From the NCBI GenBank assembly GCA_001771575.1, contig MEUD01000001.1, positions 62,001-126,000 on the forward strand: a DNA stretch of 64,000 nucleotides, in the 5' to 3' direction. Position numbers and translations under genes: made by a program. Within the stretch, counting starts at the first letter, position 1, and each line of letters opens with the position of its first letter. Below the pieces are notes generated by a model. That model did not search any database. It was not told the DNA's origin and worked only from the letters and a program-made list of their open reading frames with translations. The DNA is from a candidate division WOR-1 bacterium RIFOXYB2_FULL_45_9 (GTDB lineage: Bacteria > Margulisbacteria > WOR-1 > O2-12-FULL-45-9 > XYB2-FULL-48-7). Positions 4,513 through 52,680 of this stretch are shown one piece after another.

Positions 4513-5436
4513 ATGAGGAAAATGTTCTTAGCTGTTATTTTATTTATGGTTTTTTTGTCGTTGACGGCGGTCGCCGAGCTTGCCCCTGGTGACCAGGTCC
4601 GTTTGGAACGGATGAAAACCCGGATCGCCAATCTAACCCCGGAGGGACGGCAGGCGATGATCAAGTTCTTGAATTCGCGCTTATTTAACCTGGAAAATGG
4701 GATCGGGCTGACCGAAAAGATGACCAGGCAGGAGCGGGCGCAGGAGATCGAAAGAATTAAAGCGGAACTCGATCTTCTATACACCATCCCAAAGGCCGAG
4801 GCCCCGGCCATAGCTGAAGCGACCCCCGAAGCGATCGCAACCCTTGAAGTCATTGCCGTTTCCCCAACTACAGAACCTCTGTCCGTTATCGCGCAGATCC
4901 TTGAGCCTCAAGATGAACCGGTCCAACCGGTTGTTGAAAAACATGAACGGATAAAGTACAACCCTACCGGGCCACTGCCGACCGAGTTAAAGCATCAGCC
5001 AAAACCGGTTAAAATAAACGCTCCCACGCAAAAACAAGAGAAAGCTTCGTCAGGGAAAATTGCTTTTTGCGGAGGATATTTTGCCGGTTTGGCCGCTTTG
5101 CGGGGTGAATGGGAGTTGTCGTTTAATGACATCAACTTTAGATTTGGTGGTTTATATGGATCAGGCGCCGGCAATAGTTCTTTAGCTGCTTTTGCCGACA
5201 GTTACTATTATCTTAATCCTCCGGGGACGGTGGGGATGCTATCTTATGCTGGACTGGGAGTTAATTATACTTTACTATCATCGGCTGGTGGTCAACGGTC
5301 GTTGGGAGGCGAAGTATTTTATGGCGGCGAAACTCCTTTTGGTGATGGGAATCTGTTCTTTGAGTTTGGTTTTGGCTCGGTCAGGCCAGGAGTAGAGCAA
5401 TCAGGGATTACCGCGTTGGTTGGCTATCGTTTTTAA
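4513..5436 (+). CDS. Secreted protein: helical N-terminal half, Pro-rich linker, barrel-like C-terminal domain (paralogue 1)
   Basis: Function unknown. The ATG at 4501 lies inside the -10 box, so I start at 4513 (MRKMFLAVIL). A signal peptide ends near VAEL; then about 70 helical residues rich in Arg/Glu (RLERMKTRIANLTPEGRQAM), a Pro/Ala/Glu linker, and a Gly/Phe/Tyr-rich C-terminal domain of about 130 residues with alternating short strands and a terminal aromatic residue (VGYRF), as in outer-membrane barrels. The segment YAGLGVNYTL...GGEVFYGGE...FFEFGFGSVRPG recurs in the proteins at 33663 and 34799, so the three are paralogues. It stands alone, divergent from rarA. Confidence 0.75.
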   Translation: MRKMFLAVILFMVFLSLTAVAELAPGDQVRLERMKTRIANLTPEGRQAMIKFLNSRLFNLENGIGLTEKMTRQERAQEIERIKAELDLLYTIPKAEAPAIAEATPEAIATLEVIAVSPTTEPLSVIAQILEPQDEPVQPVVEKHERIKYNPTGPLPTELKHQPKPVKINAPTQKQEKASSGKIAFCGGYFAGLAALRGEWELSFNDINFRFGGLYGSGAGNSSLAAFADSYYYLNPPGTVGMLSYAGLGVNYTLLSSAGGQRSLGGEVFYGGETPFGDGNLFFEFGFGSVRPGVEQSGITALVGYRF

Positions 5437-5488
5437 TTCTCCCGTATTTTGCCTGAAATTTTAACCAATATACCACGATAATTTGGGC

Positions 5489-6718
5489 ATGAAGATAGAA
5501 GTTCGTCGTTTTAACGGTCAACCGCGCGCTTGGTGGAAACCCCGGGCGACCGATCACTGGGATAAAAAGCTTGGCGCGGGAAATCGTTTGGAAATACAGC
5601 TTGTCCAATGGAGCAAATATCCGATCCAAACGCTTCAATACCTGATGCCGGGTCAGCTCCGCCTTGACGCCGCAGTCAACCGGCTGGAGAGGCGGATTCG
5701 CGGGATTGAAACGACGATGATCGAACTTTCCCAAATGCCGGACAATTTCCAGCTTATGGTCAGGAAGGCGAGCCGGTTTTACGACCGCTTGATGGCTGGA
5801 ATATTCGCGTTTTCCATTCTTTCGGCCGCGCTTGACCTGACGACCAGTGAACGGGGGAATTGGGAACGGATCGTTTTTAATCTTGGCTTTTTGACCATCC
5901 CGGCGGTGAGCCTTGGGCATATCCGTAAGCGTGCCAGGACAAGTGAGTTGCTTGCCTTAAAAGCTAAAGAAGAATTGGTCCCTTTGCTGGCGTATCGCCG
6001 GGTCATTCAGGAGTGGGCCGGGGTCTCGCATGACATGAAAAACATTTTAGGGGCGATCTATCTGGCCTCGTCCACGGGAAAGTGCGCGTGCTTTTCCAAT
6101 GAGGGAGCGGTCAGGGAACGGCTCAATATTATTCACGATTCGGCGAAAGAGCTGGGAAACCTGATCGACACGATGAAAAATCTGTTCCGTCCGATCAAGC
6201 TTTCCGATAAACCTTTGCCGGTCCTGGACCTCTTGTCGGAAACGGTCTACACCTTTACTCATTTGAAAAATATCGAGGATAGGAAATTCGTCGTGATCAT
6301 TAACTCCAATCCGGAGCGGCCAATGACCCGGCTTGACGAACTAAAGTTCAAGCAGGCGGTCCTTAACCTGCTGATCAACGCTTTTGACGCCATCCCGGAA
6401 ACAACGAGAGGGGAGATCGAAATATCAGCCGATAACGTCAGGGTGCCGCGGGACCTTGAGACCAGCCAAGGGACTATCCCCTCCGGTCATTATATAAAAA
6501 TCACGGTCAAAGATAACGGATCGGGGATACCGGAAGATATCCTGCCGAAAATGTTTGATTTTGGCGAGACCACGAAAGGAAGAAACGGCACCGGGATCGG
6601 TCTGACGATCGTTAAAACCGCGGTCGAGGGGCACAAGGGGTTCATTGACGTTGCGACTTCTCAGAAACCCCGACAGAGCGGGACCAGTTTTTTCTTGTAT
6701 TTCCCGGTCATTGTTTGA
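5489..6718 (+). CDS. Orphan membrane sensor histidine kinase
   Basis: Two-component kinase homologue with no response regulator beside it. From the ATG at 5489: a soluble N-terminal ~95 residues without a recognised sensor domain, two hydrophobic helices (about 101-117 and 127-143) with a very short outside loop, a coiled linker, an H-box with H181 (GVSHDMKNIL), an N-box (QAVLNLLINAFDAIP), G1 (VKDNGSGIPEDIL), an F-box and G2 (KMFDFGETTKGRNGTGIGL). The H-box form SHDMKN is the HisKA type that also occurs in autokinases of NtrB/KinB type. The nearly absent periplasmic loop suggests membrane or cytoplasmic sensing. A TTG codon two codons upstream is possible but less likely. The 3' end overlaps the convergent inhibitor gene by 11 bases. 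Confidence 0.85.
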   Translation: MKIEVRRFNGQPRAWWKPRATDHWDKKLGAGNRLEIQLVQWSKYPIQTLQYLMPGQLRLDAAVNRLERRIRGIETTMIELSQMPDNFQLMVRKASRFYDRLMAGIFAFSILSAALDLTTSERGNWERIVFNLGFLTIPAVSLGHIRKRARTSELLALKAKEELVPLLAYRRVIQEWAGVSHDMKNILGAIYLASSTGKCACFSNEGAVRERLNIIHDSAKELGNLIDTMKNLFRPIKLSDKPLPVLDLLSETVYTFTHLKNIEDRKFVVIINSNPERPMTRLDELKFKQAVLNLLINAFDAIPETTRGEIEISADNVRVPRDLETSQGTIPSGHYIKITVKDNGSGIPEDILPKMFDFGETTKGRNGTGIGLTIVKTAVEGHKGFIDVATSQKPRQSGTSFFLYFPVIV

Positions 6719-8654: not shown

Positions 8655-9542
8655 TTAATGTCCATCCCAGCCAGCCAGTCTGGCCATGAGCCACCAAAGA
8701 GCCACGCCTTTATTATAGCAGTTTTCCTGACTGGTGTGCGACCATTCATAACTCGGGCCATCGGTATTGATCGCTCCGTACTGGGAATGCCTGATGGGGA
8801 AAGTGTTTCCGCCGTAACTATCGGTCGCTTGAGCTCCTCCGTACCAGCATTCAATATCGGCAAAATCATAGAGAACCTTGTTATTGGTCTGGCAATAGAG
8901 TCTAATCTGCTCATTGCGCTGGTGGCGATTCCAGCCGGACGCGCCGTTGGTGCGAGCGTGACCGGTCATATAAATAAAAGTCACTCCCGGGAATTCCGTT
9001 TCCAGGTTGTTGATCGCGTTCAAGTACTCGGTGACTTGGCCGGCGGTCCAGGTATCCAGTTCCGCGCACCAGGCCCACATTGAATATTTAATATCGGTAT
9101 TGTCGGTTAATATCTGTCGGGTTGTGTTGAGTCCGGCTGTGGTACTCCAGTACTCCTCCGGTTCAACGCAATCGTCGCTTGTTTGGCCGTTCCAGACACG
9201 CAGATTGGGGATCGGATCAGGAGATGAGCACCATTCGACATTGACCGGATAAATGGTTGGATTGGATGTTTCAATGTCCTTCGCTCCGATCGTGAGAGAA
9301 GAGCCGTCAGAACGGCGGCAATAGTGAAGCGCCCGATTATTTGTTCTTACCGTTGTTATCCAGTCAGCGGGGATACCGGAGAGCGCTGTGCTGTTATGGT
9401 CAATGTTGATCGCGCTGGAAGAGGAAGCAACGGTAGTGGTGGTACTAGTGGTGGTGGTCGTGCTGGTGGAGTTGACCACCGTACAACCGCTGCAGAACAT
9501 GATCAAACCGGCCGCCAGCAACCCAATTAAAGATTTGGTCAT
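8655..9542 (-). CDS. Thr-linker lipoprotein, possibly SGNH-hydrolase-like
   Basis: Signal peptide with lipobox-like FCSGC, then a Ser/Thr-rich linker ([12 protein letters not shown]) as spacer from the membrane. The ~250-residue Cys- and Trp-rich domain contains [26 protein letters not shown], a [18 protein letters not shown] segment and a late HTSQENC; this layout recalls SGNH/GDSL-type secreted hydrolases, but I cannot place the catalytic triad with confidence. Its ATG abuts the stop of the upstream lipoprotein gene, so it is the last gene of the three-gene exported-protein operon starting at 11731. Confidence 0.65.
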
Positions 9543-10988: not shown

Positions 10989-11731
10989 TTGATTTTTTTC
11001 TCTACGACTATTGGCGAGAAAGGACCGCCCTGCGGCCCTTCATAACGGATGAAATGATGGGGCGCTTCTCCTTGGAACCAGAAAGTGATCGACGGGATGA
11101 TGCCGGAGAGTAGCCCCAGATCGGGCTTGAGATCGACGCGGAAGGAGTTGTCGGAATCTGACTTTATCTGGAAGATCATATTGTAAGTGTCGCCTGTTGG
11201 AATGATCAGCTTGAGTTTTCCAGCCTGACGCTTGTTTTGTACGCAGGCTTGAAGGTAGGGGGCCAGGTCGGAGGTGTAGACGGTGTTATCGGTCAGCTCA
11301 ATTGTTTTAGTTTTTGTCTGTTTTTTATCCAGGTTTTCAAACAATAAACCAGCGACACGGGACGGCCAATCAAATGTTATTTTCACATAACTGAAAGGCT
11401 GGCCATTCTTCTTGCTTTCTCCTTCATGAGAGTAGACGTTGATTGAACCGTCCGAATTGATTTGGTAATAAGAGGTGGTCAGAGAGGTTAGCTTGTCGCC
11501 GTTGTTTATTTCCGCTTGGCCAATCGTTTTGACCACGAAGTAGTCGCGGCCGGCATAGCGGGCTTTTTGCACTTCACGTTCCGAACTACCGGCTAATTTG
11601 CCGCTCTCTTTCAGGCGGGTTTCATAGGTGGACTTGTCTCCGGCGACTAAGGCTGGATTATTAATGCCATATAGAGCGGACGAGGTTATGGGCAGGATCC
11701 ATAAAAAAATGAAAATAATTAAATATTTCAT
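10985..11731 (-). CDS. Exported DUF3108-like protein
   Basis: Start chosen at 11731 (MKYLIIFIFLWILPITSSA) since it begins a signal peptide and lies 6 bases after a TGTTATAAT box; the longer frame would run through the promoter. The 230-residue mature domain is beta-rich with ARYAGRDYFVVKTIG, INVYSHEGESKK, TGDTYNMIFQIK and a terminal HHFIRYEGPQGGPFSPIVVE, similar to DUF3108 proteins, which fold as lipoprotein-carrier-like half barrels. First gene of an operon with two lipoproteins, which would fit a role in their transport, but that is inference. Confidence 0.6.
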   Translation of the reverse strand: MKYLIIFIFLWILPITSSALYGINNPALVAGDKSTYETRLKESGKLAGSSEREVQKARYAGRDYFVVKTIGQAEINNGDKLTSLTTSYYQINSDGSINVYSHEGESKKNGQPFSYVKITFDWPSRVAGLLFENLDKKQTKTKTIELTDNTVYTSDLAPYLQACVQNKRQAGKLKLIIPTGDTYNMIFQIKSDSDNSFRVDLKPDLGLLSGIIPSITFWFQGEAPHHFIRYEGPQGGPFSPIVVEKKIK

Positions 11732-47478: not shown

Positions 47479-47568
47479 GGAGGGATGGCCGAGCGGTTGA
47501 TGGCGGTAGTCTTGAAAACTACTATGCGCGTAAGCGTATCGGAGGTTCGAATCCTCCTCCCTCCGCCA
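47479..47568 (+). tRNA. tRNA-Ser, anticodon TGA
   Basis: Acceptor GGAGGGA/TCCCTCC, anticodon arm GTAGT-CTTGAAA-ACTAC, long variable arm, T arm GGAGG-TTCGAAT-CCTCC, discriminator G and encoded CCA (47566-47568). The upstream tRNA cluster at 21 kb lacks encoded CCA. Confidence 0.95.
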
Positions 47569-47575
47569 ATATTTT

Positions 47576-48403
47576 ATGCGGAAAAAAATCAAATTAAAAC
47601 TTCAAGCGTTGTTTGGCCGGCTGATCAAAAAAATCCTGGGAAAGTATGTTTTTGCCCTGGTCACCAAGACGAGCAACGGCCTTTTTGCCGTTGACCCGGA
47701 AGATTACGGGGTAGGGAAGCATTTGCGGCAGGAGGGAAACTACGGCGAGGATGAGCTCCTCCGGCTTCGTCCGCTGATCAATCCTAATAGTTCTGTTTTA
47801 GTCGTTGGTTCCCATATTGGTTCTTTAGTTATTCCATTGGCCAAGGTCTGTAAGAAGATCGTGGCGATCGAAGCCAATCCGGCGAACTATGAACTGCTCG
47901 AGCTGAACCTTTCCTTGAACAAAGTTATGAACTGCCGGGCTTATAACCTGGCCGCCAACGATCAAAAAGGGATCCTGGAACTGCTTGCCAGCCGTTCCAA
48001 TTCTGGTGGGAGCAAGCGGGTCCCCCAAAAGAAGGATTACGCTTATTATTATGATAATCCTGAAACGATCAAGGTCCCGGCGGTCCGGCTTGACGATCAG
48101 CTGGCGGAAAAACAATTTGATCTGATCGTTATGGATATTGAAGGATCGGAGTATTTTGCCTTGAAGGGGATGCCGGAGATCTTAAAGCAGTCCAAGGTCC
48201 TGGTCGTGGAGTTCCTTCCTCATCATTTAAAGAAGGTGAGCGGGGTGAAGGTTGATCAATTCTTAAGCCTTATTGAACCATATTTCTCCCGGTTGATCGT
48301 CCCTTCGAGAGGGTTAAAAGTTGCCGGCAAAGAGATCGGGACCGTACTTCAAGAGATGTACGACCGGGACTTGGAAGATAACGGGATCATTTTCGAGCGG
48401 TAA
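47576..48403 (+). CDS. FkbM-family methyltransferase
   Basis: SAM-dependent methyltransferase, often for sugars or lipids. 275 residues: SAM-binding VLVVGSHIGSLVIPLAKVCKKIVAIEANPANYELLELNLSLN, YNLAANDQKGILEL, the FkbM segment KVPAVRLDDQL and FDLIVMDIEGSEYFALKGMPEIL. The ATG lies 7 bases after the tRNA-Ser CCA; no separate promoter is visible, so it may be co-transcribed with the tRNA. Substrate unknown. Confidence 0.85.
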   Translation: MRKKIKLKLQALFGRLIKKILGKYVFALVTKTSNGLFAVDPEDYGVGKHLRQEGNYGEDELLRLRPLINPNSSVLVVGSHIGSLVIPLAKVCKKIVAIEANPANYELLELNLSLNKVMNCRAYNLAANDQKGILELLASRSNSGGSKRVPQKKDYAYYYDNPETIKVPAVRLDDQLAEKQFDLIVMDIEGSEYFALKGMPEILKQSKVLVVEFLPHHLKKVSGVKVDQFLSLIEPYFSRLIVPSRGLKVAGKEIGTVLQEMYDRDLEDNGIIFER

Positions 48404-48460
48404 TCCCCTCAATAAAAAACTACCCAACTAAAATCGATTAAGGTATAATTAAATCAACGC

Positions 48461-48548
48461 GGAGGAGTACCCAAGCGGCTCAAGGGGACGGTTTGCTAAA
48501 CCGTTAGTGGGGGCAACCCCAGCGTGGGTTCAAATCCCACCTCCTCCG
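48461..48548 (+). tRNA. tRNA-Ser, anticodon GCT (integration target)
   Basis: 88 nt: acceptor GGAGGAG/CTCCTCC, anticodon arm ACGGT-TTGCTAA-ACCGT, variable arm with stem TGGGG/CCCCA and a GCAA loop, T arm GTGGG-TTCAAAT-CCCAC, discriminator G, no CCA. From 48491 on, the 3' half and its flank are repeated at 51178. The anticodon arm contains the core GTTTGCTAAAC that also occurs at 48647 and 51178. Confidence 0.96.
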
Positions 48549-48617
48549 AGTTTAATAATAAAAGGTTCTGCGCCGGAGGCGCATCCGCCTGCGGCGGAAA
48601 ATCTCGCCTCCTCCGTA
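48491..48617. repeat. 127-bp direct repeat, left copy (3' half of tRNA-Ser plus flank)
   Basis: Matches 51178-51304 at 120 of 127 positions, offset 2687. Differences: 48509 and 48520 (a compensating G-C to A-T pair in the variable arm), 48536, 48537 and 48539 (T arm), 48561 and 48562 (flank). Reads as the left attachment-type copy and gives the functional tRNA. Confidence 0.95.
48549..48615. repeat. 67-bp palindromic insertion at the tRNA-Ser 3' end
   Basis: The tRNA ends CCTCCTCCG (48540-48548) and the same nine bases recur at 48607-48615. Between are two adjacent hairpins, TGCGCC-GGA-GGCGCA and TCCGCC-TGC-GGCGGA. This looks like a small palindromic element inserted with duplication of the tRNA end. 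It is also present in the right copy. Confidence 0.75.
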
Positions 48618-48624
48618 TTTTTTT

Positions 48625-48645
48625 ATGAATTTAAAACAAATCCTT
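48625..48645 (+). pseudogene. Stranded first seven codons of the alkD-like gene
   Basis: 21 bases from an ATG, identical to the first 21 bases of the intact gene at 52021-52041 (MNLKQIL), then cut off by GTTTGCTAAAC. Identity starts exactly at the start codon. It implies that the alkD-like gene once directly followed the tRNA here or in a donor genome. Confidence 0.8.
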
Positions 48646-48657
48646 AGTTTGCTAAAC
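48645..48657. repeat. Attachment-core-like copy, left edge of the cargo
   Basis: TAGTTTGCTAAAC, identical to 51176-51188; the inner GTTTGCTAAAC also occurs in the tRNA anticodon arm at 48491-48501. Marks the probable left edge of the 2.5-kb cargo. The core is itself an inverted repeat (GTTT...AAAC). Confidence 0.75.
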
Positions 48658-48772
48658 AGAATCGCGCCATAATTATTTCTATAGTCACAGAGAAAAGCTA
48701 TCAATCGTCTTTAGCCACTTTGGTGATATTATAATTTAATGAGGTGCCTCCGGTGTCTATTTTGGAATAAAC

Positions 48773-50965
48773 ATGACTAAGAAAAGTAACAAAAGAAAGA
48801 TCATAATTAATGGTCGTGAGTATGAGTCGATCGGCAGTGCGGCGAGTGCGTATAGCATTTCGCGCAATACAATTGATTACCGACTCTCAAAGGGATGGAC
48901 GCCAGAACAAGCAGTCGGTTTTGAACCCTGCCCAAGTCACGCTGCTTCAACCCCAGGAATTAAAGTTAAGGTGCAAGGTCACGAGTTCAATAACATCAAA
49001 GAAGCGGCAAAATATTACGGTCGATCCTACACACATATATTTAACCGGCTAAAGCAAGGTTGTACTATCGAACAAGCGCTTGGTCTGGTTAAGCGAACAG
49101 ATTCACTACAGTCAGAATACCCAGAAATATCTAAACAATGGCACGCAACCAAGAACGGTACATTAACTGCTGATGCGGTAACACCACATTCTGGCCAAAA
49201 AGTGTGGTGGCGGTGTTCACACGGTCATGAATGGAAAACGGTCATCAACAGCCGCACGCGAGGATACGGTTGCCCGTACTGTGCAGGACAAAAACCAACT
49301 GCTGAGCGAAATTTTGCTACAAAATATCCCGAGCTAGTAAAAGAGTGGAATTGGGAAAAGAACGGGCATATGAAACCGGAGGACTTTGCTCCTCGTTCCC
49401 AAAGTAAGGTTTGGTGGAAATGTGATAAAGGGCATTCATGGGAAGCGGTTATAACAAACCGCACACGTGACACGAGGAATCTGTGTCCAGTGTGCAGCAA
49501 TAGAATGTTAGGCAAAGACAATAGTCTAGCCCAGGTTTGCCCTGACATTGCCAAAGATTGGCATCCATACAAGAATGCGCCATTAACACCAAACGACGTT
49601 GTGGCCGGAGGTAGTAAAAAAGTCTGGTGGATATGCAAGCATGGTCACGAATGGCAAGCAATGATCATAAGCCGTGTTAAAGGTACTGGGTGTCCAAAAT
49701 GTTCTCTTCAGACATCCAGGATTGAAATCGCAGTCTATTCAGAATTGGTTGCACTATTTGATAATATTACTTGGCGTGAAAAGATTTCAGGTTATGAGTG
49801 TGATATATATCTACCTGATAACAAGATTGGCATCGAGATCGATGGAGTCTACTGGCACAGTCGAAAGCCAAAACAGGAGTTAGCGAAATCAGCAGCATTT
49901 GAAGCCGAGGGGATTCAACTGTTTCGATTAAGGGAATATGGATTGCCGGTTCTGAGCGAACGAGATGTTTCATATAAGAACTCTGAAAATGAGTTCCATA
50001 TTGTATCTAGAATTGTTAAAAGTTTGCTTAAATACGCAAAACTAACTAAGGCACAATATGCCAAGCTTAACGACTATCTTGAAGGGAAAGGACTTGCTAA
50101 CGAAAAGCTTTATCGTAAATTGGTAGCTAATTTACCTGCTCCACCACCTGGTCAGTCATTAGCAGACAAGTATCCGGAGATTGCAAAAGAATGGGCTTAT
50201 GACCTAAATGCTCCCTTATCACCTGAACATTTTTGGCCCCAAGCAAATAAGAAAGTTTGGTGGCGCTGTAAAAACGGGCATATTTGGAAGACGACACCTA
50301 ATATCCGTGTATGTCAGGGAACTAACTGTCCCAATTGTCCACGACCTTTTATCAAAGTCACAGATGGAAGGAGTCTTGCCGTGGTCAATTCTGGATTGGC
50401 AAGTGAATGGCATTCTGAAAAGAATGGGGACCTTCGACCAGAAGATGTTCGGCCGAGATCAAACCTAAAAGTATGGTGGCAATGTAGCAAAGGACATGAA
50501 TGGGAAGCCGTAGTGAGTAGTAGAGCAGGTGGAAGCGGTTGTCCCTACTGTTACGGTCGTTTTGCTTCGAAAACTAATAATCTGGCATATAAATATCCGG
50601 AATTATTAAAAGAATGGGATCAAGAAAAAAATATTGGCCTCAATCCTTCCGAATTAACTCCACATGTAGGCAAGAAGGTTTGGTGGCGTTGCGTAAAGGG
50701 GCACAGTTGGCAAGCAACTATTTACAACAAAGCCAAAAACAAGTCAGGATGCCCTATCTGCGCACGAAATAATAGCCGAAAACATTCGATCGAAGAAATT
50801 CAGGCGATCGCGAAAAAACGTGGCGGAAAATGTTTGTCCAATATATATACGAATTGCAGATGCAAAATTAAATTGCGTTGCAAAGAAGGGCATATTTGGG
50901 AAACGCGCGGAGATAGTATCTTATATACCAATAAGTGGTGTCCAGTATGCGCAAAAAAACAATGA
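48773..50965 (+). CDS. Zinc-ribbon-repeat (DUF4379) protein with Vsr/EDxHD-like endonuclease domain
   Basis: 730 residues, AT-richer than its neighbours. Order: two ~45-residue DNA-binding repeats of the type that accompany homing endonucleases (INGREYESIGSAASAYSIS...GWTPEQAVG at 11-49; VQGHEFNNIKEAAKYYG...GCTIEQALG at 67-104); three DUF4379 treble-clef modules (about 113-171, 182-243, 252-312) each with KVWW-x-C-x-x-GH-x-W and a closing C-x-x-C; a PD-(D/E)xK/Vsr-like nuclease (315-395) with E318, D344, E355, D357 and H362 in TSRIE, YECDIY and IGIEIDGVYWH; three more modules (464-524, 536-595, 605-664) and a degenerate one (685-730). Likely a site-specific nuclease that drives spread of this element; a defence role is the alternative. 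TATAAT at 48730. Confidence 0.85.
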   Translation: MTKKSNKRKIIINGREYESIGSAASAYSISRNTIDYRLSKGWTPEQAVGFEPCPSHAASTPGIKVKVQGHEFNNIKEAAKYYGRSYTHIFNRLKQGCTIEQALGLVKRTDSLQSEYPEISKQWHATKNGTLTADAVTPHSGQKVWWRCSHGHEWKTVINSRTRGYGCPYCAGQKPTAERNFATKYPELVKEWNWEKNGHMKPEDFAPRSQSKVWWKCDKGHSWEAVITNRTRDTRNLCPVCSNRMLGKDNSLAQVCPDIAKDWHPYKNAPLTPNDVVAGGSKKVWWICKHGHEWQAMIISRVKGTGCPKCSLQTSRIEIAVYSELVALFDNITWREKISGYECDIYLPDNKIGIEIDGVYWHSRKPKQELAKSAAFEAEGIQLFRLREYGLPVLSERDVSYKNSENEFHIVSRIVKSLLKYAKLTKAQYAKLNDYLEGKGLANEKLYRKLVANLPAPPPGQSLADKYPEIAKEWAYDLNAPLSPEHFWPQANKKVWWRCKNGHIWKTTPNIRVCQGTNCPNCPRPFIKVTDGRSLAVVNSGLASEWHSEKNGDLRPEDVRPRSNLKVWWQCSKGHEWEAVVSSRAGGSGCPYCYGRFASKTNNLAYKYPELLKEWDQEKNIGLNPSELTPHVGKKVWWRCVKGHSWQATIYNKAKNKSGCPICARNNSRKHSIEEIQAIAKKRGGKCLSNIYTNCRCKIKLRCKEGHIWETRGDSILYTNKWCPVCAKKQ

Positions 50966-51175
50966 TGTAACTACTGCAGAATCTAATTTAGGGATCAAGA
51001 GGTATCTAAACGTCATCCTCAATACTATACATGATTCTTTCTAACAAGCTTCTAACAAAACCAAATCAAATGAACATAAATGAACAGCCTTCCTAACTAA
51101 AAATCAAACCTGAAATACTTTAAATATTTGACTTTGTTGAGAGTAAAAGTATAAAATAATAACAGTTTCCGAAGG
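50966..51175. other. AT-rich non-coding tail of the tRNA-Ser element
   Basis: About 210 bases, clearly richer in A+T than the rest of the window; no credible gene, tRNA or terminator. It ends at the TAGTTTGCTAAAC core. Confidence 0.5.
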
Positions 51176-51177
51176 TA

Positions 51178-51304
51178 GTTTGCTAAACCGTTAGTAGGGG
51201 CAACCCTAGCGTGGGTTCAAATTTCGCCTCCTCCGAGTTTAATAATAGGAGGTTCTGCGCCGGAGGCGCATCCGCCTGCGGCGGAAAATCTCGCCTCCTC
51301 CGTA
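51178..51304. repeat. 127-bp direct repeat, right copy (displaced tRNA-Ser 3' half plus flank)
   Basis: Second copy of 48491-48617, starting in the anticodon arm; it lacks the 5' half, so it is not a tRNA gene. The variable-arm pair is exchanged in a compensating way (A at 51196, T at 51207), while the T arm is weakened (GTGGG against TTCGC). This suits a displaced host 3' half that evolved in a working tRNA before it was cut off. Confidence 0.95.
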
Positions 51305-51322
51305 GTTTTAATTCCCCCATGA

Positions 51323-51328
51323 TATAAT
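51323..51328 (+). promoter_or_regulatory. -10 box of the nucleotidyltransferase operon
   Basis: TATAAT, 8 bases before the ATG at 51337, no Shine-Dalgarno. Near-leaderless. Confidence 0.6.
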
Positions 51329-51336
51329 AATCTCAT

Positions 51337-51825
51337 ATGTATTATGCTGAAGTCTTTGAGGCTTTAAATCGCGAAAAAGTAAAGTATTTAGTTGTTGGCG
51401 GGGTTGCTGTTGTTTTGCACAGTGTTATGCGCTTAACCGCTGACCTTGATTTGATGGTTGATTTGAAAAAAGAAAATCTGCTTAGTTTTATTAAGGTGCT
51501 ATCTTCCCTTGGTTATATGCCAAAACTGCCAGTTGAGGCCATCGATTTTGCCGATCCCTTGAAAAGAAAGACTTGGATCAAAGAAAAAAACATGAAGGTC
51601 TTCTCGTTTATTCATTCCCAGCAAGCTTATAAGATTATAGATGTTTTTGCCGACGAACCGATCTCGTTCGCTGACGCTTATAACAGGAAGCAGGTTGTTA
51701 GAGCAGGGGAATTGCCCATTGATGTTATATCCTTAGCCGACCTAATTATTTTAAAAAAACTTTCTGCCAGAGAACAGGACTTGGCGGACATTAAAATGCT
51801 GGAGGCGTTGCAAGACAATGATTGA
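51337..51825 (+). CDS. Nucleotidyltransferase-fold protein (DUF6036/AbiEii-like)
   Basis: 162 residues of the Pol-beta nucleotidyltransferase superfamily: VKYLVVGGVAVVLHSVMRLTADLDLMVDL gives the GG helix start and the D-x-D metal pair, followed by LGYMPKLPVEA, KVFSFIHS, IIDVFADEP and VISLADLIILKKLSARE-QDLADIKML. Such proteins are often found in toxin-antitoxin-like pairs or as isolated RNA/protein modifiers. It overlaps a small second gene by 8 bases. The pair sits between the right repeat and the alkD-like gene, in a place the stranded alkD start suggests was once absent. Confidence 0.75.
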   Translation: MYYAEVFEALNREKVKYLVVGGVAVVLHSVMRLTADLDLMVDLKKENLLSFIKVLSSLGYMPKLPVEAIDFADPLKRKTWIKEKNMKVFSFIHSQQAYKIIDVFADEPISFADAYNRKQVVRAGELPIDVISLADLIILKKLSAREQDLADIKMLEALQDND

Positions 51826-52012
51826 AAACAATCGGGCCGGGAAGATTGGTTGGTATAGTTTTCAAATTGATGGCGAACGTTTGCGAGAATATGCGAAACT
51901 TTCGGCCGCTGCCCGTTTGGAGTGGCTGGAAGAAGCTAATCAATTTTTTAATTCGATTTCCGATCCCGCTATTAAAGAGCGTTGGCGGCTTGGGCGGGAA
52001 GGAAAAATTTAA
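51818..52012 (+). CDS. Small partner protein of the nucleotidyltransferase
   Basis: 64 residues: MIENNRAGKIGWYSFQIDGERLREYAKLSAAARLEWLEEANQFF; a short beta start then helices with the A-R-L-x-W-L-E-E-A pattern seen in small proteins encoded next to such nucleotidyltransferases. The overlap (8 bases) indicates coupled translation. Possibly the antitoxin or substrate of its neighbour, which is not shown by sequence. Confidence 0.65.
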   Translation: MIENNRAGKIGWYSFQIDGERLREYAKLSAAARLEWLEEANQFFNSISDPAIKERWRLGREGKI

Positions 52013-52020
52013 TTTCTCTG

Positions 52021-52680
52021 ATGAATTTAAAACAAATCCTTGCCGAACTGAATAAACATGCCAATGCTAAAAATGTCGCTGGGATGGCCCGCTTTGGGAT
52101 TAATTCTAAAAATACGCTCGGCATCAATATCCCAACACTCCGCGCTTTGGCCAAGAAAATAGGGAAAGATCACCAGTTGGCAGTTGAGTTGTGGCAAACC
52201 GGGATCCACGAAGCGCGGCTCTTAGCCGGTTTCATCGATGATTATAAGCAGGTGACCGACCAACAGATGGAGCGGTGGGTCAAAGATTTTGATTCCTGGG
52301 ATATTTGTGACCAGGTTTGTTCCAATCTTTTTGATAAAACTCCTTTACCATATGAAAAAGCGAAGAAGTGGGCCGTTAGGAAGGAAGCATTCGTGCGACG
52401 GGCCGGGTTTGTGATGATGGCCTGCCTGGCGGTCCACGATAAAAAAGCGCCGGATGAGAAGTTTAAGCTTTTTTTTCCGCTGATCAAGGAATATTCGACC
52501 GATGAGCGGAACTTCGTAAAAAAAGCGGTCAATTGGGCTCTGCGGCAGATCGGCAAGCGGAACCCAGCTCTTAAGACAGAGGCGATAAAGTTGGGGGAAG
52601 AGATCGTTAAAGTTGATTCGCCGGCGGCGAAATGGATCGCTCGTGACGCGATCCGGGAATTAAAAAGCCGGAAGTTTTAA
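52021..52680 (+). CDS. AlkD-like DNA alkylation repair protein
   Basis: HEAT-like-repeat DNA glycosylase family (AlkC/AlkD) that removes bulky or cationic alkylated bases. 219 residues from the ATG at 52021: FGINSKNTLGINIPTLRALAKKIGKDHQLAVELWQTGIHEARLLAGFI, FDSWDICDQVCSNLF (the W-D-x-C-D active-site helix) and VKKAVNWALRQIGKRN. Eight bases after the small gene, so now part of that operon. Its first 21 bases are duplicated at 48625. The stop overlaps the convergent zinc-ribbon gene by 4 bases. Confidence 0.9.
   Translation: MNLKQILAELNKHANAKNVAGMARFGINSKNTLGINIPTLRALAKKIGKDHQLAVELWQTGIHEARLLAGFIDDYKQVTDQQMERWVKDFDSWDICDQVCSNLFDKTPLPYEKAKKWAVRKEAFVRRAGFVMMACLAVHDKKAPDEKFKLFFPLIKEYSTDERNFVKKAVNWALRQIGKRNPALKTEAIKLGEEIVKVDSPAAKWIARDAIRELKSRKF

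Follow-up and report, generated by a model that had tools for sequence, protein, structure and literature searches.

Related systems

A homing nuclease tied to tRNA genes is known from phage T4, namely SegB, a member of the GIY-YIG family. It is the homing endonuclease of the tRNA gene region of that phage (PMC2988022, PMC13096335). The EDxHD/Vsr-like homing endonucleases, such as I-Bth0305I (PDB 3R3P), join a nuclease domain to modular DNA-binding repeats. Phage group II introns carry endonuclease genes, described as a large unrecognized outgroup, that encode ~60-aa domains distantly related to CapR, DUF4379 and DUF723 together with a distant EDxHD/Vsr domain (PMC12350094). Among elements located at tRNA genes, islands of the tyrosine-integrase type (Islander database, PMC4383910) show a restored tRNA, a displaced 3' fragment at their ends and an empty site in a relative, and the tycheposons of Prochlorococcus and Methylophilaceae (PMC10872708) are cargo elements that begin at a tRNA. 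DUF4379 itself is almost unstudied in the literature searched, where few papers name it, and no link of the DUF4379-EDxHD family with tRNA genes was found there.

The tRNA-Ser(GCU) locus and its empty site

The window (the whole 64,000-nt stretch of DNA analysed here, on the plus strand of which all oriented features given below lie) carries an intact tRNA-Ser(GCU) (nt 48460–48549), followed by an ORF of 730 aa (nt 48773–50965) and a displaced repeat of the tRNA 3' half. All three had been recognised in the original prediction, which took them for a mobile element having the nuclease as its only gene and as its possible substitute for an integrase. The two copies of the direct repeat (nt 48491–48622 and 51178–51309) are 2687 bp apart, as described earlier, while their extent was revised from 127 bp (120/127 identical) to 132 nt at 94% identity. 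With an E-value of ~1e-44 the repeat is not due to chance. It begins at tRNA position 32, in the anticodon loop, covers the rest of the tRNA and extends 73 bp past its 3' end; the T-arm of the right copy carries substitutions, and no tRNA is called there. The anticodon loop is a sublocation used by tyrosine integrases. The window thus shows a restored tRNA with a displaced fragment at the far end, as expected of a tRNA island, but not the island's own integrase gene: an HMM built from the integrases of the studied loci detected neither a tyrosine integrase nor an integrase remnant in the window, in agreement with the earlier description of the element as integrase-free.

Beyond the tRNA, the repeat includes a GC-rich palindromic sequence (nt 48564–48603, no strand assigned) that is dispersed in related genomes and was matched in several belonging to the same class. 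Both copies end in a further degenerate tRNA-Ser 3'-end fragment (17 nt, nt 48599–48615, in the left copy; nt 51286–51302 in the right). The left copy then runs on into a remnant of the first 15 codons of a DNA-alkylation-repair gene (nt 48625–48672), the first 21 nt of which are identical (21/21) to the host's copy from nt 52021 onward. A related genome, G002, has a different palindrome at the equivalent place by tRNA-Ser(GCU), followed by the same degenerate tRNA 3' end. A search of the organism's own genome for further copies of the repeat or element gave only weak, short matches, and no close match to the tRNA repeat was found elsewhere in it.

An empty tRNA-Ser(GCU) site, which the original prediction had proposed to seek in related genomes, was found in a member of the same genus (G001). 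Here tRNA-Ser(UGA), tRNA-Ser(GCU) and the DNA-alkylation-repair gene follow one another without interruption, the last starting within 12 bp of tRNA-Ser(GCU), and the nuclease gene is not present at the site. Relative to G001, the window has an inserted block (nt 48561–52020) between tRNA-Ser(GCU) and the repair gene (nt 52021–52680), which carries not only the nuclease gene but also a DUF6036-type nucleotidyltransferase gene (nt 51337–51825), and the single-gene description was therefore too narrow. The block is AT-richer, as had been noted for the nuclease gene, with the G+C content falling from ~0.51 upstream to 0.38–0.46 across it. Since the left repeat runs into the repair-gene remnant, the order of the region can be written A-B'-X-A'-N-B, where A is the repeat, B the repair gene, X the nuclease and N the nucleotidyltransferase, and at least two events are needed on the downstream side of tRNA-Ser(GCU). 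On the other side, an FkbM-type methyltransferase gene (nt 47576–48403), absent in G001, lies between tRNA-Ser(GCU) and tRNA-Ser(UGA) (nt 47479–47568), which directly precedes the former tRNA in G001; no repeats flanking this insertion were detected.

The 730-residue protein

The nuclease domain (residues 314–393, nt 49712–49951) is homologous to the catalytic domain of EDxHD/Vsr homing endonucleases, as had been predicted. A profile of 42 relatives, compared with PDB sequences, gave I-Bth0305I as its sole match (3R3P, E 3.5e-5), and the fold of the predicted domain (pLDDT 89) matched 3R3P first, followed by DUF559 and Vsr (Foldseek; probability 1.00 for 3R3P, all E-values >0.001). The best matches in PHROGs were phage HNH/homing endonuclease families. 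Residues E318, D344, E355, D/N357-G358, H362 and K372 are conserved, and the conservation of E318, D344, E355, H362 and K372 suggests that the enzyme is active. Linked DNA-binding modules, as found in EDxHD/Vsr homing endonucleases, are also present. Of the two N-terminal repeats and six to seven DUF4379 modules originally proposed, Pfam recovered six DUF4379 zinc-module stretches, placed on both sides of the nuclease domain, and an I-TevI_DNA-bd/NUMOD1-like N-terminus that matched only weakly, under the curated cut-off. A defence function was considered and rejected, as PADLOC gave only homing-endonuclease and weak matches.

Homologues and their association with tRNA genes

The gene is present in five of 57 relatives, counting its own genome and weak matches, and its absence from the other 52 accords with the mobility originally proposed. 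Homologues are spread over many phyla, large viral contigs and plasmids, and a scan of Bacilli yielded few family members. A co-oriented tRNA (Ser, Ala, Val, Leu, Pro or Glu) lies within 600 bp upstream in 14 of 82 homologue loci, at distances of 100–557 bp, while within the same range no tRNA was found upstream on the opposite strand (0/82) or downstream (0/82). Most homologues lie away from any detected tRNA. Of the remaining ORFs in these loci that are 150 aa or longer, 6/424 are preceded by a co-oriented tRNA within 600 bp (Fisher p ~1e-7, uncorrected for relatedness), and in control loci of AbiEii and AlbA_2, two cargo families, any tRNA within 1.5 kb was seen in only 2/60. Mapped onto a nuclease-domain tree, the tRNA label requires 11 changes, at least nine of them forced by well-supported branches, and tRNA-Leu, -Pro and -Ala are all used within a single clade of near relatives, next to which tRNA-Ser is used. 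The adjacency has therefore arisen repeatedly and does not reflect a single inherited position. The expectation that would have undone the original proposal, homologues never lying beside tRNA repeats, is not borne out, since they adjoin tRNAs and tRNA repeats in other phyla.

At loci lacking a tRNA, 34/48 upstream neighbours share the orientation of the gene, so that the orientation bias is real but moderate. A systematic RNA target was not found by Rfam in 21 homologue loci lacking a predicted upstream tRNA. In three Clostridia genomes (L195, L196, L189) a 463-aa DUF4379 protein lies upstream of a shared, conserved 2.3-kb ParA-like block, an arrangement that is possibly vertical.

Islands bounded by tRNA fragments

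Clear displaced tRNA fragments bound islands in the window and in several homologue loci. The fragments are of tRNA-Ala in L106, L083 and L086, of tRNA-Leu in L188 and L200, and of tRNA-Ser in L198 (21 nt, exact, on either side of the gene) and in L064 and L360 (20 nt), and L104 has the 5' 40 nt of tRNA-Leu on both sides. Such fragments were counted in 8/82 homologue loci and 0/60 controls, a comparison that is biased, the tRNA set coming mostly from the test loci, and so is not proof. An HMM derived from the integrases of these loci detected no tyrosine integrase in the segments of L106, L188, L200, L198 and L104. Only a 5' stub and a 3' fragment of the host tRNA are left in L106 and L200, whose islands contain a complete tRNA. 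L106 also provides a small island of the same build with other cargo, a DUF4062-NTPase.

Further details were observed at individual sites. In L200 (nt 5357–5671 and 9060–9117) the host tRNA-Leu is interrupted at the anticodon loop and shows a repeat of 12 bp, ACTCAAAATCCG; the complete tRNA-Leu of the island has a different anticodon stem. In L083 and L086 (nt 4600–4780 in each) two tandem tRNA-Ala 5' stubs of ~22 nt, with a 68-bp linker, precede the complete tRNA-Ala. In L104 (Pelagibacteraceae) the boundaries are 40-nt tRNA-Leu 5' halves plus upstream flank (nt 4829–4868 and 11200–11238), and the segment between them contains the nuclease gene together with a helicase-like gene of 1528 aa. 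Three other candidates were set aside: the tRNA-Pro repeats of L067 occur also in congeners lacking the gene, the 12-nt right-end repeat of L066 is weak, having no counterpart at the orthologous insertion in G503, and a 10-nt match in L183 is near chance.

The closest homologue (L360, Bdellovibrionales, 64% aa identity) resides in an element of 13.5 kb that extends from an intact tRNA-Ser to the 20-nt 3'-end repeat and carries a Phage_integrase gene, a DUF3987/CHC2 primase-helicase gene and a helix-turn-helix gene, possibly an excisionase. Tyrosine integrases were also found by Pfam near homologues at tRNA-Val (L113) and in L101, a locally built integrase HMM gave matches in L081, L191 and L199, and a serine recombinase follows the nuclease gene at tRNA-Ala in L086. 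Elsewhere, homology between different sites is limited to the gene (L093/L109, 86%; L067/L313, 84%); a congener of L067 has its 84% copy at another place, with similarity confined to the ORF. In L093 (Niallia), the sequence in common with a gene-less relative reaches ~100 bp past the tRNA, so the insertion did not split the tRNA; in that relative a tyrosine-integrase gene lies immediately downstream of the same tRNA. The corresponding Peribacillus locus, L109, has no tRNA. The L067 and L093 cases fit a homing-endonuclease-type gene moving alone or as a passenger. Unlike these gene-only cases, the window gene is bracketed by the 132-bp repeat and has a second gene beside it.

Origin of the insertion

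We consider it somewhat probable that the window gene is a homing-endonuclease-type passenger in a tRNA hot spot that bears an integration scar. DNA would then have entered the tRNA-Ser(GCU) hot spot on more than one occasion. Most likely the repeat of the tRNA 3' half was left by a site-specific integration at the anticodon loop, the integrase that would have catalysed it may later have been lost or have acted in trans, and further insertions would have occurred beside the scar. The DUF4379-EDxHD gene would be a selfish gene, its nuclease perhaps promoting its own spread, that rides small tRNA-integrated islands and sometimes moves bare. The empty site in G001, the start of the repeat at tRNA position 32, the integrase-bearing element of L360, the integrases and serine recombinase near other homologues, the different cargo of L106, the gene-only homologies and the lack of a close match to the tRNA repeat elsewhere in the genome all count in favour of a passenger. 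Against it are the failure to detect an integrase or remnant in the window and the extension of the repeat 73 bp past the tRNA, which is longer than a usual att site. Moreover, proximity to tRNAs is far above that of the AbiEii and AlbA_2 cargo controls, and small tRNA-bounded islands in which no integrase was detected recur (the window, L106, L188, L200, L198 and L104), a recurrence that plain cargo status does not explain.

This recurrence lends weight to a nuclease-driven element, in which the protein would cut an empty tRNA gene, repair would copy the element in and the carried tRNA sequence would restore the tRNA. The strictly co-oriented, upstream position of the neighbouring tRNAs against low controls, the repeated changes of tRNA label, including those within a single clade, and the conserved catalytic residues are all in keeping with such homing, which we nevertheless regard as somewhat unlikely at this locus. 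Proximity to a detected tRNA is the exception among the homologues, the insertion in L093 left its tRNA unsplit, the sublocations vary from the D-loop to the 3' end, and a restored tRNA would be expected to remain open to cleavage unless the nuclease recognises a site reaching past it. The role of integrase substitute suggested for the nuclease in the original prediction is not supported, for related reasons: the nearest homologue's element comes with an integrase and with att repeats of tRNA-Ser, other cases are accompanied by integrases too, the tRNA-end repeats of one site (L067) are found in relatives lacking the gene, and the gene also travels by itself to sites that have no tRNA. The general form of the proposal, that DUF4379-EDxHD nucleases are minimal integrase-free homing islands colonising tRNA genes across phyla, with cleavage by the nuclease, installation by repair and rescue by the carried tRNA sequence, seems unlikely. 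Rather improbable, too, is a scenario in which a bare gene was inserted beside the tRNA and the repeat then arose by local duplication, or by recombination with related DNA, as a segmental duplication or co-conversion tract and not an attachment site. The run of the left copy into the start of the host gene, a point against the passenger, also fits such an origin, and the dispersed palindrome in both copies and the gene-only homology elsewhere agree with it, but the boundary in the anticodon loop and the extra tRNA-end fragments are better suited to site-specific integration, and the association with tRNAs recurs in other phyla.

Comparison with known systems

If the gene is a passenger, as we favour, the family remains useful for marking those small tRNA islands that are missed by integrase-based island finders. 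Should the nuclease drive insertion, it would represent a second, integrase-free route for tRNA-located islands, with a rescue logic resembling that of a natural gene drive. The window gene resembles I-Bth0305I in its nuclease domain and modular DNA-binding repeats, but is free-standing, without an intron or intein, has its nuclease amid the DUF4379 modules, and its cleavage activity is predicted. The CapR/DUF4379-EDxHD genes of phage (PMC12350094) lie in introns and have a C-terminal nuclease, whereas the present gene is bacterial and located at a tRNA gene. SegB likewise couples a homing nuclease to tRNA genes, but is a phage gene without bracketing tRNA fragments. The restored tRNA, displaced 3' fragment and empty site are those of Islander-type islands, from which the window differs in having no detected integrase and a repeat that continues 73 bp past the tRNA; tycheposons, which also begin at a tRNA, differ in carrying a tyrosine recombinase.
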